Part shown: piece after piece, positions 5,413 to 12,251 of the stretch
Layout: every line of letters begins with the position of its first letter
Numbering within the stretch: position 1 is the stretch's first letter
NCBI GenBank assembly: GCA_021296325.1
Contig: JAGWAR010000001.1
Location: 86,479 to 150,478, forward strand
Origin: Alphaproteobacteria bacterium
GTDB taxonomy: Bacteria > Pseudomonadota > Alphaproteobacteria > GCA-2746255
DNA length: 64,000 bases
Direction: 5' to 3'
The notes under the pieces: generated by a model
Databases searched by the model: none
What the model saw: the letters and a program-made list of their open reading frames with translations, nothing else
Told to the model about the DNA's origin: nothing
Made by a program: the position numbers and the translations under genes

Positions 5413-6003
5413 TCAGTCGAAATCCTGCATTAGGGCGGCGTGTACATTGTCCGGGATACTCGCCATGTGCGCGTAACCGTCATGCCGGATTCCGAGGATA
5501 ACTTCCGTTTCCGGATCCCGAAACGCCGCGATCGCCGACGGCGTGAAAGGAAAGTGCAGGAAGTGCACGGAGGAGGCCTTGCCGCCTTCGGTCGATCGTT
5601 CGACGTCAGCTTCGGGGACGGCGCTGATCTTTTCACTGCCGACGTGAAGGGTAACCGCTTTCTCGACACCACCCAGCCTGGCGAGGAAGCGGGCGCGGCG
5701 ATCGGGATTTTCGATTTCGAACATCAAGGTCGCGACGAGTTCGTTTCCCTTCGGAATCAATGGATTATACGCGGCCAGTTCGTCGGCGATCTGGTCCTCG
5801 CCGCCCTTTTCGATGTAGAGCATCTCGTGAACCTGCCACCACATCGTATCGTAATTTTCGAAATAGAACGTCGCGTAAGGACCGACGGAAACCCGCCGGT
5901 TCTTCTTGATCGCCGAGACGTCCTGCCGGCGCTGGTGGCGAATTTTTTCGTACTCTTCAAGCAACAGCACGTCCGCACGGGTGATTTCGTGTTTGCCGGT
6001 CAT
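5413..6003 (-). CDS. DUF3501 family protein
   Basis: A 196-residue protein of unknown function, recognised by the family core FYFENYDTMWWQVHEMLYIE, followed by YNPLIPKGNELVATLMFEI and a C-terminal GKASSVHFLHFPF block. No signal peptide, membrane segment or cysteine is seen, so it is probably cytoplasmic. Start ATG at 6003 overlaps the TGA of the upstream Fe-S protein (ATGA), indicating translational coupling; the longer frame to 6123 lies inside that gene and is rejected. From memory, DUF3501 genes commonly sit with rubrerythrin and this type of CCG-domain Fe-S protein, as here, so a role in the same iron/peroxide-linked electron-transfer module is inferred, not shown. Confidence 0.9.
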   Translation of the reverse strand: MTGKHEITRADVLLLEEYEKIRHQRRQDVSAIKKNRRVSVGPYATFYFENYDTMWWQVHEMLYIEKGGEDQIADELAAYNPLIPKGNELVATLMFEIENPDRRARFLARLGGVEKAVTLHVGSEKISAVPEADVERSTEGGKASSVHFLHFPFTPSAIAAFRDPETEVILGIRHDGYAHMASIPDNVHAALMQDFD

Positions 6004-7346
6004 GGCGCCGACACCCCATAGGCGCGGGCAAAAAGTTCGATCGGATGAAAGGCCCGGTCCGGCACCGTTTCGCCGTCGAGGCGCGCCATGCCTTGCAGGA
6101 TGTGCTGTCCCGCCAGCGGGCATTCTGAAGCGACATGGGTCTTCTTCCCGTTGGCCGCCTGACGGGCGACCGGCTTGCCCACCTTCAGCGCCGTTTCAAA
6201 GTTTTCCTTCATGATGCCCCACGAACCGCCATGGCCGGAGCAACGCTCGATCACCTGAAGGTCGGCTTCGGGGATGAGGCGCAGCATCTCGACCGCCTTC
6301 TGTCCCATGTTCTGGGCCCTGGCGTGGCAGGCAAGGTGCATGGCCACGCCGCCATCGAGGGAAGAAAGCCCTTCCGCCAGGCCTTCCTTCAGCGCGATGT
6401 CGACGACGTATTCCGTGACGTCAAGGGTCGCCTCCGAAAGCCGTTTTACGTCGGCGTCATCGGGCAGAACAAGGGGCCATTCGAATTTCAGCATGAGCGC
6501 ACAGGACGGCATCAGGGCGATCACCGCGTAGCCTTTTTCGATCCAGGGCCGCATTTCGCCCGCGACCTTGCGGGCGCGTTTGGCAACCGAGGCCAGATCG
6601 CCATGTTCGAATTTCGGCATGCCGCAGCAGGTGGGATAGACGATTTCGGTTTCGACCCCGTTCCTCGCCAGCACGGCGCGGGTCGCAAAACCGATCTGGG
6701 GATTGTGGTAATTCCCGTAACAGGTCGCATAAAGCACCGCTTTGCGGCCGAAGGCGGGCGCCTCCCGGTTGACCTCGACCGGGTCGGCGGCAGCGGCCGC
6801 GGCGAAAGTCTTGCCGTGGAATTTGGGAAGGGCCGCTTCACGGTCAACGCCCGTCGCCTTTTCCATCAGGGTGCGCACCGGCTTGTTCTTCGTGTCCATG
6901 GCCCAGTTCGCAAGCGGGGCCATCGGCGCGGCAAGCCTGGCGTTGCGGTCGGTTTCCGTCAGCTCGCGGGCGGCGAGGGGCACCTGCTTTTCCTTCAGTT
7001 CCATCGCCCGGTAGCGCAGCATGAGATGGGGAAAATCGAGATCGAATTCGTGGGGCGGTACGTAGGGGCATTTCGTCATGAAGCACATGTCGCAAAGCGT
7101 GCAGGCATCCGTCACGCGCTTGAAGTCCTTGTCTGACACGTCCTCGAGCTCCCCGGAGGGCGCGGCATCGATTAGGTCGAAGAGACGTGGGAAGCTGTCG
7201 CAAAGGTTGAAGCAACGCCGGCAGCCGTGACAGATGTCGAAGACGCGGCGGCATTCCGCTTCGACCTTGGCCCGGTCCGTAAAGTCCGGGTCCTGCCAGG
7301 CAAGCGGGCGGCGCATCGGGGCGCCCAGGGATCCTTCACCAGCCAT
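6000..7346 (-). CDS. Heterodisulfide reductase/GlpC-like protein with two [4Fe-4S] motifs and CCG domains
   Basis: A 448-residue electron-transfer protein. N-terminal ferredoxin-type motifs are CHGCRRCFNLC (CX2CX2CX3C) and CTLCDMCFMTKCP (CX2CX2CX4CP). The C-terminal half has two CCG-type modules: one ending YPTCCGMPKFEHGD and a second with ACHARAQNMG followed by ERCSGHGGSWG, where the canonical CCG is CSG. GlpC, GlcF and HdrD proteins use these parts to pass electrons between flavoproteins and quinones or thiols. No flavin domain or membrane segment is present, so a partner is needed. It lies between rubrerythrin and DUF3501, with a strong hairpin separating it from rubrerythrin. Supplying electrons to rubrerythrin is plausible but unproven. 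ATG 7346 is the only reasonable start. Confidence 0.9.
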   Translation of the reverse strand: MAGEGSLGAPMRRPLAWQDPDFTDRAKVEAECRRVFDICHGCRRCFNLCDSFPRLFDLIDAAPSGELEDVSDKDFKRVTDACTLCDMCFMTKCPYVPPHEFDLDFPHLMLRYRAMELKEKQVPLAARELTETDRNARLAAPMAPLANWAMDTKNKPVRTLMEKATGVDREAALPKFHGKTFAAAAAADPVEVNREAPAFGRKAVLYATCYGNYHNPQIGFATRAVLARNGVETEIVYPTCCGMPKFEHGDLASVAKRARKVAGEMRPWIEKGYAVIALMPSCALMLKFEWPLVLPDDADVKRLSEATLDVTEYVVDIALKEGLAEGLSSLDGGVAMHLACHARAQNMGQKAVEMLRLIPEADLQVIERCSGHGGSWGIMKENFETALKVGKPVARQAANGKKTHVASECPLAGQHILQGMARLDGETVPDRAFHPIELFARAYGVSAP

Positions 7347-7454: not shown

Positions 7455-7877
7455 TTACTGCCCGAGCGTGTCGAGGGCCTTCTGGAAACGCCCCGCGTGG
7501 GATTTCTCGGCCTTCGCCAGGGTCTCGAACCAGTCGGCAATCTCGTCGAAGCCTTCCTCGCGGGCGGATTTCGCCATGCCCGGATACATGTCCGTGTATT
7601 CGTGGGTTTCGCCGGCGATCGCCGCCTTCAGATTGGCATCCGTCTGGCCGATCGGCTCGCCGGTGGCCGGATCGCCGACCTCTTCGAGGAATTCGAGATG
7701 GCCGTGCGCGTGGCCCGTTTCCCCCTCGGCGGTCGAACGAAAGACGGCGGCGACATCGTTGAAACCTTCGACGTCCGCCTTCTGCGCGAAATAAAGGTAA
7801 CGACGGTTTGCCTGGGATTCGCCGGCGAAGGCCGCCTTCAGATTTTCCTCGGTTTTCGTTCCTCTCAGGGATGCCAT
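7455..7877 (-). CDS. Rubrerythrin (erythrin-type, no rubredoxin domain)
   Basis: A 140-residue four-helix-bundle di-iron protein that reduces hydrogen peroxide in the cytoplasm. The ligand pattern is complete: Glu20, Glu53-Thr-Gly-His56, Glu90 (with Glu93 nearby) and Glu124-Lys-Ser-His127. The C-terminal rubredoxin domain of classical rubrerythrins is absent, so electrons must come from another protein; the Fe-S gene downstream is the natural candidate. ATG 7877 has a fine GGAGGA Shine-Dalgarno. The upstream 176 bases carry a promoter overlapping a perfect TTAGAA-N3-TTCTAA palindrome, and irr is the next gene upstream on the same strand. Regulation by iron or peroxide through Irr is therefore likely (inference). 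The leader also contains a small hairpin (GCCGGC repeats, 7934-7949). Confidence 0.95.
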
Positions 7878-7981
7878 GTTTTCCTCCGTCTGGTTTTGGT
7901 CCCGAACTGCGTGGGCCGTTGGACGCGATGCCCGCCGGCGAAGGCCGGCCGGATGCGTTCGGCAAGCCCCGAAATTCTATA

Positions 7982-7996
7982 TTAGAATTATTCTAA
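7982..7996. promoter_or_regulatory. Irr/PerR-type operator palindrome upstream of rubrerythrin
   Basis: TTAGAATTATTCTAA is a perfect TTAGAA-N3-TTCTAA dyad. It contains the core of the iron-control element bound by Irr (TTTAGAA-N3-TTCTAAA) and also fits the 7-1-7 layout of a PerR box (TTATAAT-N-ATTATAA) with one change per half. An overlapping repeat TTCTA-N3-TAGAA is at 7975-7987. The gene directly upstream encodes Irr. Confidence 0.8.
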
Positions 7997-8023
7997 GATA
8001 GAGTCGGAAGGCTGGAAAGTAAA
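7995..8023 (-). promoter_or_regulatory. Predicted rubrerythrin promoter
   Basis: On the minus strand TTTACT (8023-8018), a 17-bp spacer, and TATCTT (8000-7995). The -10 element touches the TTAGAA-N3-TTCTAA dyad, so a bound Irr dimer would cover the -10/+1 region and repress. The leader to the ATG at 7877 would be about 110 bases. Confidence 0.5.
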
Positions 8024-8053: not shown

Positions 8054-8476
8054 TTAGTCTTCCAGGTCGGCCAGATGCAGGATCACGTCGACCCGTTTTA
8101 CCGTCTTGCCGGCCGGCGGGTCGGGGAGTCTTGCGATCGCGAGCTGGTCGGCGGGAATGTCCCGAAGCTCGCCGCTGTTTTCACAGAAGAAGTGGTGATG
8201 GTCGCTGATGTTCGTATCGAAATAGGCTCGGCCCGATTCGACGATGACCTCGCGCAGAAGCCCGACCTCGGTGAACTGGTGCAGCGTGTTGTAGACGGTG
8301 GCCAGCGAAACCCGGATGCCGTCGGCAAGCGCCTCGCCATGCAACTGTTCGGCGCGCACGTGCCGATCCGTCCCGTCGAAAAGCAGCTTCGCCAGGGCCA
8401 GACGCTGGCGCGTCGGGCGAAGCCCTGATTCCCTCAGGAGGTCATAGGCGTTTGCATAAGGACGGGTTGCGGCCAT
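8054..8476 (-). CDS. irr: Iron response regulator Irr (Fur superfamily)
   Basis: Irr is an alphaproteobacterial Fur-family regulator that acts under iron limitation and is inactivated or degraded in response to heme. The 140-residue protein has the Irr signature GLRPTRQRLALAKLLF, the recognition helix VSLATVYNTLHQF, and the HHH motif in SDHHHFFCENSGELRDIP, plus the C-terminal KRVDVILHL. The N-terminal GCPWHD-type heme motif of Bradyrhizobium Irr is missing, so any heme response would rest on the HHH site. ATG 8476 has GAGGAAAAAA just upstream. The next gene in the direction of transcription is rubrerythrin, whose promoter carries a matching operator. The irr promoter overlaps an inverted repeat, which may be autoregulatory. 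Confidence 0.95.
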   Translation of the reverse strand: MAATRPYANAYDLLRESGLRPTRQRLALAKLLFDGTDRHVRAEQLHGEALADGIRVSLATVYNTLHQFTEVGLLREVIVESGRAYFDTNISDHHHFFCENSGELRDIPADQLAIARLPDPPAGKTVKRVDVILHLADLED

Positions 8477-8528: not shown

Positions 8529-8570
8529 GCAAAAACATTGCCTTCCGGAGCTTTTTCGAATTCCCCTAAA

Positions 8571-9968
8571 TTAGTCCCCGGTGAGCAGGCGCTCGAACAG
8601 CTCCTGCACCGTCGGGATGTAGCCGTTCGCATAGAAGGGGTCCGTCTTGAAGCGAAAGGCGTTGTGACCGGCGAACATGAGTTCGTTGTCGAGATCGCCC
8701 CCATGGGCGATCGCCTGCAGGGTCTTCTGGATGCAGTAGGACCGGGGATCCGGTTTCTTGCCGGTCGAGCCGGTCTCGTTCTGCGACCAGTTGCTGAAAT
8801 GGCAGGCCGAAAGGCAGCCCATGCAGTTCACCTGATCCAGGCGAATCTGTTTTGCGTTTTCCGGCGTGACGAAGATCAGCGTCGAATCCGGCGTGCGCAT
8901 CGCTTCCGTAAAGCCGGTCGAGACCCAGGCTTCCGCCCGCTGCTTGTCGGTCACGGTCAGGAAGACCGGGCGTTTCCTGGCGCCAATCCCGAAGGCAACC
9001 TGATGCTCGCCAACCGGTTCCACCGTATAGGCGACCTGGCGCTCGGAACGTTCCCGCAGATCCTTCAGGAAGCCGTTGTTGACGCAGGAGGAATAGAAAC
9101 CGGTCGGGCTGAAGCGGTTGAGCCGAACGTCGCCCTCGTCGAGTTGAAGCAGGCGGCGCTTCCATTTCTCCGGGATCGGGCTTTCCTTCGTGAGCAGCGC
9201 CCGGGTGCCGAACTGAAAACAGATCGGCCCCAGTTCCGGGTTGTCGATCCAGTCCTCCCACTCCCGCAGGTACCAGACGCCACCGGCCATGACGATCGGC
9301 GTGTCGTGCAGCCCGAACTCGCGCATCTGCTGGCGCATGGCGAGCACGCGCGGATAGGGGTCCTGGGGCACTTCCGGGTTTTCGCTGTTGCTGAGGCCGT
9401 TGTGGCCGCCGGCACGCCACGGATCTTCGTAGACAACGGCGCCGAGAAACTCGGAAAATTTGTGATAGGCGCGTTTCCACAACGCCCGGAAGGCGCGCGC
9501 CGAGGAAACGATCGGATAGCAATAGACGCGGTAGCGCGCACAGACTTCGGCCAACCGGTACGGCATGCCGGCACCGCAGGTGACGCCATGAATAAGGTCC
9601 CTAGCACCTTCGAGGATGCCCTTGAGTACGGTTTCCGCCGCGCCCATTTCCCAGAGGATGTTGACGTTCAGCCGACCCTGGCCATTCGCCATTTCGTGAG
9701 CGATCTGTGCCTGGCGGATGCCGCCCCGGATGGATTGCTCGATCAGTTCAAGATGGCGTTCGCGGCGATTGCGGCCCCGGTAGACGTAGGGAATGGGCAT
9801 GCCGTCCGCGTCGAAGCTATCGGCGTTGACGCCGGAGAAGGTGCCGATGCCGCCCATGGCGGCCCAAGCGCCCGAGCTTTCGCCGTTCGTGATCGAGATT
9901 CCCTTGCCCCCCTCAACGAGGGGAAGCACCTCTTTTCCCGAAAGGAGAAGGGGGTTCAGAGCCTTCAC
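8571..9968 (-). CDS. Nitronate monooxygenase (2-nitropropane dioxygenase)-like flavoprotein with C-terminal cysteine cluster
   Basis: A 465-residue FMN-binding TIM-barrel protein. Family features are the N-terminal SGAWAAMGGIGTFSG, RLNVNILWEMG, HGVTCGAGMP, GGHNGLSNSE (the HG/GH flavin and active-site region) and IVMAGGVWYLREWEDW / FQFGTRALLTKE for phosphate binding. The enzyme class oxidises nitronates such as propionate-3-nitronate, or acts as an NADH:quinone reductase; substrate is unknown here. Unusually, the C-terminal part contains CMGCLSAC plus a later Cys (C-X2-C-X3-C-X22-C), recalling the [4Fe-4S] site of dienoyl-CoA reductase-type flavoenzymes. GTG 9968 is chosen for its GGGAG Shine-Dalgarno 8 bases upstream. 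It precedes irr by 94 bases on the same strand. Confidence 0.82.
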   Translation of the reverse strand: MKALNPLLLSGKEVLPLVEGGKGISITNGESSGAWAAMGGIGTFSGVNADSFDADGMPIPYVYRGRNRRERHLELIEQSIRGGIRQAQIAHEMANGQGRLNVNILWEMGAAETVLKGILEGARDLIHGVTCGAGMPYRLAEVCARYRVYCYPIVSSARAFRALWKRAYHKFSEFLGAVVYEDPWRAGGHNGLSNSENPEVPQDPYPRVLAMRQQMREFGLHDTPIVMAGGVWYLREWEDWIDNPELGPICFQFGTRALLTKESPIPEKWKRRLLQLDEGDVRLNRFSPTGFYSSCVNNGFLKDLRERSERQVAYTVEPVGEHQVAFGIGARKRPVFLTVTDKQRAEAWVSTGFTEAMRTPDSTLIFVTPENAKQIRLDQVNCMGCLSACHFSNWSQNETGSTGKKPDPRSYCIQKTLQAIAHGGDLDNELMFAGHNAFRFKTDPFYANGYIPTVQELFERLLTGD

Positions 9969-10121: not shown

Positions 10122-12251
10122 CTAGCCCGCCTCGGCCGTCTCCTGCGCCTTCTGCAGGTCCTCGCCGGTTTCCTGATTGACCGCCTTCATGCTCAGCTTC
10201 ACCTTGCCGCGGTCGTCGATGGCGAGCACCTTGACCTTCACCACGTCGCCTTCCTTCACGACGTCCGTCACCTGCGCCACGCGCCGGGGCGCCAGCTCGC
10301 TGATGTGGACAAGGCCGTCGCGGGCCCCCAGAAAATTCACGAAGGCGCCGAAATCGACAACCTTCACGACCTTGCCGGTATAGATCGTACCGATTTCCGG
10401 CTCGGCGACGATGTCCTTGATCCAGGCGATGGCCGCGTCCCCCGCTTCGCTGTTCACCGCGGCGACCTTGATCGTGCCATCGTCTTCGATGTCGACCTTG
10501 GCGCCGGTTGTTTCGCAAATCTCGCGGATGACCTTGCCGCCGGTACCGATCACTTCGCGGATCTTGTCCTTCGGAATCGTCATCACCGTGATGCGGGGCG
10601 CGTGGGTGCTGACCCCTTCGCGGGCCTGGGCAAGGGCTTTCGTCATCTCGTCAAGGATATGCAAACGGCCTTCGTTCGCCTGGGAAAGCGCCGTGCGCAT
10701 GATCTCTTCCGTGATGCCGGTGATCTTGATGTCCATCTGAAGCGCGGTGACACCTTTTTCCGTGCCGGCGACCTTGAAGTCCATGTCACCGAGATGGTCC
10801 TCGTCACCCAGAATGTCGGTGAGCACCGCCACGCCTGACTCTTCCTTGATGAGGCCCATCGCGATGCCGGCGATCGGACGCGGCAACGGAACGCCGGCAT
10901 CCATCAACGCCAACGACGTACCGCACACGGTTGCCATTGATGATGACCCGTTCGACTCGGTAATTTCCGAGACGACCCGGATCGTATAGGGGAAGTCCTC
11001 TTTGCTTGGCATCAGCGCGTGCAGCGCGCGCCAGGCAAGCTTGCCATGCCCGACTTCCCGGCGACCGGTAAAGCCGACGCGGCCCGTCTCACCAACGGAG
11101 AAGGGAGGGAAATTGTAGTGGAGCAGGAAATGCTCGCGGTATTCCCCTTCAAGCGCATCGACGAATTGTTCGTCCTGCCCGGTCCCGAGCGTGACGACGA
11201 CAAGCGCCTGGGTCTCACCACGGGTAAACAAAGCGCTGCCGTGGGAACGCGACAAGAGGCCGACTTCCGCCTGGATCGGACGGACCGTTTTCGTATCCCG
11301 TCCGTCGATCCGTTTTCCCGTCTCCAGGATGGCGTTTCGCACGATCGCCTTTTCCGCCTTCTTGATAGCCGCTGAAACGGCCGTCTCGGCAATTTCCGCC
11401 GCCGCCAGCGTTTCCACGAGGTCCTTGCGAATCTCGCCCAAGCGTTCGGAACGGGCCTGTTTTTCGGTGATGGCGTAGGCTTCCCGAAGGTTCGCCTCGG
11501 CCTTCTCGCGCACGGTGGCGGCAAGCTTCGTCTCGGCCTCGCTTGGCCCTTCCACGGTCCAGGCCGCTTTGCCGCAGGCCTTCGCCATTTCGGTAATCGC
11601 CTCGATCACCGGCTGGAACGCCTGGTGGCCGAACATAACGGCCTCGAGCATGACGTCTTCCGCCAGCTCGCTTGCCTCCGATTCGACCATGAGGACGCCT
11701 TCCTTGGTGCCGGCGACGACCAGGTTGAGATCCGAATTCGCCATTTCATCAAGCTGGGGATTGAGCACGTGGCGGCCGTCGATATAGCCGACCCGCGCCG
11801 CGGCAATGGGTCCCTGAAAGGGAATGCCGGAGATGGCAAGGGCGGCGGAAACGCCGATCATCGAGACGATATCCGGATCGTTCTCGAAATCGTGGCTCAA
11901 CACCGTGCAGATAACCTGCACATCGTTGCGGAAATTGTCCGGAAAAAGCGGCCGGATTGGCCGGTCGATCAGACGGGAAACCAGAATTTCCTTTTCGCTC
12001 GGCCGACCTTCCCGCTTGAAGAAGCCGCCGGGGATCTTTCCCGCTGCATAGGTTTTTTCAATGTAATTTACGGTGAGGGGGAAAAAGTCGATTCCTTCGC
12101 GTGCCTTTTTCTCACCAACGACGGTGCACAATACGGACGTGTCTCCGTAGGTTGCCAGCACCGCTCCATCCGCCTGCCTGCCAATTTTTCCTGATTCCAG
12201 AACAAGCTTTCGATCGCCCCACAGAATTTCCTTACGCGTAACATCAAACAT
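10122..12251 (-). CDS. pnp: Polyribonucleotide nucleotidyltransferase (PNPase)
   Basis: The phosphorolytic 3'-to-5' exoribonuclease of the RNA degradosome; it also adds tails. The 709-residue length is standard. Two RNase PH-like domains flank an all-helical linker: the first holds [10 protein letters not shown] and [21 protein letters not shown], the second [19 protein letters not shown] and phosphate-binding [21 protein letters not shown]. The C-terminal KH domain shows [16 protein letters not shown] and the S1 domain [17 protein letters not shown]. Start MFDVTRKEI at 12251 is preceded by AGAAGGAAG. It follows rpsO after 98 bases, the classical rpsO-pnp arrangement, and ends the rimP operon. 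Confidence 0.98.

Follow-up and report, generated by a model that had tools for sequence, protein, structure and literature searches.

A FabX-like protein filed among the nitronate monooxygenases alternates with FabA in Alphaproteobacteria

Introduction

What is the function of an alphaproteobacterial protein that Pfam files as a nitronate monooxygenase (NMO), that carries a CMGCLSAC motif and whose gene lies next to irr? The question arises from a stretch of 64,000 nucleotides (contig JAGWAR010000001.1, positions 86,479 to 150,478), hereafter called the window. A first-pass annotation had proposed a flavin/iron-sulfur enzyme under iron control and had likened its cysteines to those of 2,4-dienoyl-CoA reductase and TMADH; it lacked both the precedent of FabX and the likely function. 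Most bacteria depend on making unsaturated fatty acids, and in Gram-negative organisms the FabA-FabB pair is the textbook way to do so. FabX of Helicobacter pylori is described in PMC8626469 as an FMN enzyme of the NMO family whose [4Fe-4S] cluster is proven; the same paper places FabK in this family as well, states that FabX requires O2 as electron acceptor and assigns its homologs mostly to microaerophiles and anaerobes.

Results

The gene and its surroundings

The gene starts with GTG, and a GGGAG stretch ends 8 bases ahead of this codon. Within its own genome the gene has a single match. The window shows, in order, pnp, the FabX-like gene, irr, rubrerythrin, the CCG protein and DUF3501, with these coordinates:

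10122..12251, minus strand: pnp (named from reading of the sequence), bordering the slot upstream
8571..9968, minus strand: FabX-like NMO-family gene (P0001), 465 aa, GTG start, stop codon included
8054..8476, minus strand: irr (IrrA), bordering the slot downstream (NF045678, 203.9 bits, cut-off 150)
7455..7877, minus strand: rubrerythrin, conserved neighbourhood (family match)
6000..7346, minus strand: cysteine-rich CCG/GlpC-like protein, conserved neighbourhood (family match)
5413..6123, minus strand: DUF3501 protein, conserved neighbourhood (family match)

The 465-aa protein matches the Pfam NMO model PF03060 (E 3.9e-9, 36.8 bits, cut-off 28), the match being a partial one that covers positions 136-286 of the 331 in the model. 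No NCBIfam model covers the family, and no PHROGs phage family matched the protein.

H. pylori FabX is the nearest relative of known structure

When the single protein was searched against PDB sequences, H. pylori FabX was the sole convincing match (E 1.5e-16), and with a 27-row profile FabX reached E 1.3e-26, followed by FabK at 7e-5. An AlphaFold model of the 465-aa protein (pLDDT 85.8, pTM 0.86) gave FabX as the top Foldseek match (E 1.5e-20) and also as the first VIA-align match, with Z 36.2 and 3.0 A over 355 residues of the 366-residue chain (model range 1-464); FabK came second, with Z 29.2. A PfaD-type enoyl reductase was considered and rejected, as it gave no NCBIfam match and a VIA-align Z of 24.2 against 36.2 for FabX.

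Both 2,4-dienoyl-CoA reductase and TMADH possess a CxxCxxxC-type motif and a flavin and belong to a separate flavoprotein family. The likeness to these enzymes gave way to FabX, which stood first by profile, Foldseek and VIA-align; neither of the two was among the best 50 matches listed for each structure search, and at E <= 0.01 the Pfam and NCBIfam searches returned NMO and a weak FabK match and no family of dienoyl-CoA reductase or TMADH. The OYE-like flavin enzyme XenA appeared at Foldseek rank 46 (E 9e-5). The statement that NMO enzymes hold FMN only likewise meets a published exception, which is FabX itself.

To locate residues of known role in FabX, 81 family members and 20 shorter relatives were aligned together with those portions of the FabX sequence that the PDB search alignment printed. 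The elements concerned are:

9447..9500, minus strand: helix region, residues 157-174 with R158, R166 and K170, the counterpart of alpha7, the helix with which FabX binds ACP
9402..9404, minus strand: His189 codon, equivalent by alignment to the catalytic His182 of FabX
8826..9026, minus strand: extra domain that FabX lacks (about residues 315-381), with predicted strands and two helices
8802..8825, minus strand: CMGCLSAC, with Cys382, Cys385 and Cys389, equivalent to FabX C300, C304 and C308 (C308 by spacing)
8733..8735, minus strand: Cys412 codon, in SYCIQK, equivalent to FabX C320 in GYCIAD

The roles of the FMN ligands, catalytic histidine, ACP-binding residues and cluster cysteines of FabX are those given in PMC8626469. 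The side-chain ligands of FMN N99, E175 and Q240 correspond to N103, E181 and Q252, each present in 81/81 members, and T243 to T255 (80/81), while the catalytic H182 corresponds to H189 (81/81). Of the residues that bind ACP, K152 and R160 are represented by R158 (80/81) and R166 (81/81), and R164 by K170, a position that is lysine in 64 members and arginine in 17 and is thus basic in all 81. C300, C304 and C320 aligned directly with C382, C385 and C412; C308, which fell outside the printed FabX sequence, is matched to C389 by its equal spacing from C304/C385, there being no other cysteine in that stretch. Counting against identity with FabX, T130, N131 and Y277 are replaced by Y137, R138 and F291 in the window protein, so that the ACP-chink residues T130/N131 of FabX are absent here, and both groups of short relatives differ at these positions too. 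Overall identity to FabX is 21-26%, which is under the limit of >50% applied to homologs in PMC8626469.

The four cysteines are invariant

Both the reading frame and the spacing C382-X2-C385-X3-C389-X22-C412 are exactly as first annotated. A scan of contigs from named genomes confirmed 447 relatives, from which the best 80 of 447 were kept (66-73% identity). In the window protein and these best 80 of 447, C131, C382, C385, C389 and C412 are invariant and C143, C150, C250 and C295 variable. After relatives from further genomes had been added, conservation among homologs, the check proposed for the cysteine set, held throughout: C382, C385, C389 and C412 were found in 135/135 distinct full-length sequences, as were C131 and H189. 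Because it is invariant across relatives, the four-cysteine set is not a product of chance. The alignment with the cluster ligands of FabX (PMC8626469) lends good support to the original suggestion of a flavin/[4Fe-4S] enzyme, which is probably right.

C131 (9576-9578), in TCGAGMP, is an extra invariant cysteine (135/135) at a position occupied by threonine in FabX and mostly by serine or methionine in the short groups.

The family and FabA exclude each other

The FabX-like family and FabA were each searched at E <= 1e-20 in 192 genomes of Alphaproteobacteria. The family was found in 104/192 and FabA in 73/192 (70 over the cut-off); no genome had both and 15 had neither. The Fisher p of 2e-38 for this exclusion is overstated, since the genomes are related and the counts are not independent. 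In 14 control genomes, the FabA search matched E. coli and Caulobacter alone. FabB at E <= 1e-170 occurred in 70 of the 192 genomes, in every case with FabA and never with the FabX-like family. Across 397 genomes of the phylum, 90 carried the full-length family, 40 the short relatives and 237 a FabA over cut-off, the last overlapping with neither. Two overlaps exist under the FabA cut-off and count against strict exclusion, one genome with the full-length gene and a FabA-like match of 3.9e-21 (G235) and one with a short relative and a match of 2.2e-23 (G199).

No FabA was found in the genome of the window itself, which is 91.7% complete, its sole match to the FabA model scoring 22.8 bits against a cut-off of 238; nor was an FA_desaturase (PF00487) found there at E <= 1e-5. 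The same genome has a FabF over cut-off and, away from the slot, a FabI-like gene (437.6 bits, cut-off 446). Two genomes of the same genus, each 99% complete, possess the family, and FabA was not found in them. An FA_desaturase match (PF00487, E <= 1e-5) was present in 45/104 family-bearing genomes and absent from 59/104. The FabX-like gene is retained in eight genomes of 0.8-1.2 Mb, the copy in one being partial and cut by the end of its contig; such retention is expected of a housekeeping enzyme. A member was also found in named strains of Azospirillum and Gluconacetobacter, in a scan for the FabX-like gene alone.

Among the 15/192 genomes with neither FabA nor the family (G019, G047, G057, G068 and others), two gave a desaturase match.

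A shared slot and exchange within a genus

The FabX-like gene fills a slot that in other Alphaproteobacteria is given to fabA-fabB: the arrangement is pnp-[FabX-like gene]-irr in the window and pnp-[(fabI)-fabB-fabA]-irr in FabA genomes, with the opposite orientation relative to irr. Among the best 80 of 447 loci, considering those with enough flank, 39/71 have pnp no more than 1.5 kb upstream and 44/70 have irr within 800 bp downstream; the two occur together in only 15/63, a point against the FabX-type reading. On the other side of the comparison, 20 of the 73 fabA genomes were inspected, a chosen and not a random set in which two contigs were short. Fourteen of them have irr divergent from fabA and no more than 0.7 kb away, one more has it at 1.5 kb, and in five it was not seen; pnp was on the opposite side together with irr in six. 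Two further loci were viewed (L113 and L114), and irr was present in L114. Loci L170 and L180 have fabA-fabB between irr and pnp with no fabI seen, and L176 has fabA-fabB plus a FabI-like gene; in both L170 and L176 the FabB protein exceeds the FabB cut-off.

Both states also occur among close relatives. Family f79 is mixed, with the FabX-like gene in G078 and FabA in G171. In genus g195, FabA was found in 5/60 genomes, four of them over the cut-off and the fifth a fragment from a genome 75% complete, while in two others (G381, G540) the family is present and no FabA is over the cut-off. The flanks in g195 agree, reading PBP1A, prfB, methyltransferase, X and then a convergent hydroxyacid dehydrogenase, where prfB is over its cut-off and the other three names were confirmed by Pfam. 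X is the FabX-like gene in 2/2 genomes inspected and fabA-fabB-fabI in 4/4 (G467, G615, G590, G565; loci L189-L191 and L202-L204 for the whole alternation). G467 has FabA and is not among the 130 phylum-wide matches to the family, all of which were listed; absence of the family refers to the whole genome for G467 and to the locus alone for G615, G590 and G565. At L189, FabA is over its cut-off, FabB scored 624.6 bits against 630 and FabI 384 against 452. This exchange at one site within a genus amounts to a natural replacement experiment and a ready-made genetic test.

Of the six g195 loci compared, that of G467 alone has additional ORFs between prfB and the methyltransferase: one encodes a caspase-like (Peptidase_C14) protein, and two more accompany it (L189:7883-8728).

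irr and palindromes

Iron control of the gene had been proposed from its position next to irr. That proposal is not supported: in fabA genomes irr borders the slot as well and its neighbour is no redox enzyme; as irr is present whichever enzyme fills the slot, its adjacency carries little information on regulation of the FabX-like gene. The window was scanned with an ICE consensus motif, giving three matches against 0.79 expected, and no ICE-like palindrome lay in the upstream gap of the FabX-like gene. One palindrome, ATTAGAATTATTCTAAG (7981-7997, two mismatches), lies between irr and rubrerythrin, upstream of the latter, and would be in keeping with rubrerythrin being controlled by Irr. Upstream of irr there is a weaker palindrome (8554-8570).

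Extra domain, short relatives and phylogeny

A segment of about 65 residues (315-381) is placed between the barrel and the cysteines and is missing from FabX and from both short groups. In the full AlphaFold model it contains blocks with pLDDT of 91-97, and in 22 sequences it has 13 invariant columns besides C382. Folded alone, the domain gave no hit to a solved structure at E <= 0.001, the best Foldseek match having E 1.6, and no Pfam family was found up to E 10.

The short relatives, from other families of the phylum, form two groups of 9 and 11 sequences, whose open frames span 370-414 aa and 390-452 aa respectively, and retain the positions aligned with C300, C304 and C320 in 9/9 and 11/11. 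Judged from size and genomes, the 11 sequences of group B may be the UfaA lineage. A tree of 60 rows, 39 of them from the full-length family, split this family from the short groups and FabX with 100% SH-aLRT; it was made by a quick method, with midpoint root and with FabX on a very long branch that drew a program warning. Members from outside the Alphaproteobacteria nest among alphaproteobacterial ones, with support of only 86-88.

Outside the Alphaproteobacteria, families f152 and f171 (G195, G198, G263 and others; loci L118-L141 in part, L194, L195) carry the full-length gene with matches of E about 1e-235 to 1e-259, which may reflect either transfer or ancestry. L194 fell outside the de-duplicated set and so is not in the tree. 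At L195, pnp lies 1.5 kb downstream of the full-length gene, the reverse of the window arrangement.

Discussion

Site conservation, the fold match, the exclusion of FabA and the exchange at the same locus are direct observations. Exclusion of FabA, together with exchange for fabA-fabB(-fabI) at the same locus, points to a role in unsaturated fatty acid synthesis. Based on sequence and model, we consider it very likely that the protein is a FabX-type acyl-ACP enzyme that contains FMN and a [4Fe-4S] cluster bound by C382, C385, C389 and C412 and that forms the cis double bond without FabA. By analogy with FabX we infer the presence of FMN and the cluster, the substrate, the direction of the reaction and the electron acceptor, which is O2 in FabX. 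The enzyme is most likely one that forms unsaturated fatty acids from acyl-ACP, probably as a dehydrogenase/isomerase, and we lean, if not strongly, towards FabX's own dehydrogenase chemistry. Under such a mechanism, a medium-chain saturated acyl-ACP (decanoyl-ACP by analogy with FabX) would dock on the basic helix, His189 and FMN would take two hydrogens from C2/C3, and the cluster would store one electron; the trans-2 product would be converted to cis-3, which FabF would then elongate.

A variant within the same pathway is possible, if doubtful: the enzyme might be a redox-neutral isomerase acting on trans-2-acyl-ACP from FabZ to give cis-3, or the extra domain might serve as docking site for an electron acceptor that is not O2. 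Such a variant would suit the extra domain, which FabX lacks and which keeps 13 invariant columns in 22 sequences; FabX needs O2 (PMC8626469), yet its gonococcal relative works anaerobically (PMC11300592). Set against this, the active-site residues match those of FabX, a dehydrogenase; no partner gene was found, and the domain by itself resembled no solved structure at E <= 0.001. FabZ with isomerase activity, resembling FabN, may be another source of unsaturated fatty acids.

The remaining explanations are far less probable than the FabX-type reading. A FabK-type enoyl-ACP reductase would account for exchange with a fabI-containing cassette, such as those of g195 and L176, and FabK is the next nearest fold; but a FabI-like gene exists elsewhere in the window's genome, the slots of L170 and L180 hold fabA and fabB with no fabI seen, TIGR03151 scored 21.2 bits against a cut-off of 453.1, and the [4Fe-4S] domain occupies the position of the NAD(P)H motif of FabK (PMC8626469), all of which makes such a reductase very improbable. 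We give similarly little credence to the idea that FabA exclusion merely mirrors shared ancestry of large clades differing in many genes. Genomes of one family are indeed mostly alike in state, but both states are found inside f79 and inside g195, where the exchange is at the same site. Least probable of all is a true nitronate monooxygenase that detoxifies nitronate and bears a non-catalytic cysteine cluster: its Pfam assignment speaks for it, but the model is matched in part only (136-286 of 331), the nearest structure is FabX and no nitronate monooxygenase, and nitronate detoxification leaves both the FabA exclusion and the fabA-fabB-fabI exchange unaccounted for.

UfaA of Neisseria gonorrhoeae (NGO1024) is reportedly the subject of Isabella and Clark 2011, whose title is said to state the absence of FabA. 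In PMC4549310 and PMC11300592, UfaA is cited as a FabX homolog essential for anaerobic unsaturated fatty acid synthesis, and the latter source gives its acceptor as unknown. Our literature search returned papers on FabX and UfaA and no alphaproteobacterial enzyme; the lineage may be mentioned in Isabella and Clark 2011 or in Bi et al. 2016. For Zymomonas, PMC10823705, a study that used anaerobic cultures, reports that vaccenic acid makes up 79.6% of the membrane fatty acids when the medium is minimal; a term search of a second paper, PMC12502597, found neither FabA nor nitronate monooxygenase named.

If the FabX-type reading is correct, an iron-sulfur flavoenzyme replaces FabA in more than half of the sampled alphaproteobacterial genomes (104/192), and the FabX kind would be widened greatly beyond the microaerophiles and anaerobes in which PMC8626469 mostly places it. 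More speculatively, and with clearly less conviction, the family could represent a third, chemically distinct class of [4Fe-4S] desaturating isomerase, old and perhaps ancestral in the Alphaproteobacteria, that would work with or without oxygen, either because electrons leave through the extra domain to some partner that is not O2 or because the reaction is redox-neutral, and that would have been swapped repeatedly with fabA-fabB at the same sites.

Among known systems, FabA-FabB, the classical anaerobic route, occupies the same slot in related genomes and is proposed to yield the same product, cis-3-acyl-ACP, but the proteins are unrelated to the FabX-like enzyme and use dehydratase/isomerase chemistry with no flavin or cluster. 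FabK shares the NMO fold, FMN and catalytic histidine and differs in having no cluster, an NAD(P)H motif in its stead and the opposite reaction (PMC8626469). The short relatives of group B are without the extra domain and fall in another clade than the full-length family. With FabX (HP0773; PDB 7E1Q, 9LT5) the window protein has in common the NMO fold, the FMN ligands, the catalytic histidine, the basic ACP-binding helix, the four cluster cysteines and occurrence without FabA. It departs from FabX in length (465 aa vs 363 aa), in cysteine spacing (X2-X3-X22 vs X3-X3-X11), in the additional domain of about 65 residues, in C131 where FabX has threonine, and in its separate clade (100% SH-aLRT). 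Cumulatively, the protein is FabX-like in site and role, and distinct from FabX in clade, cysteine spacing and extra domain.
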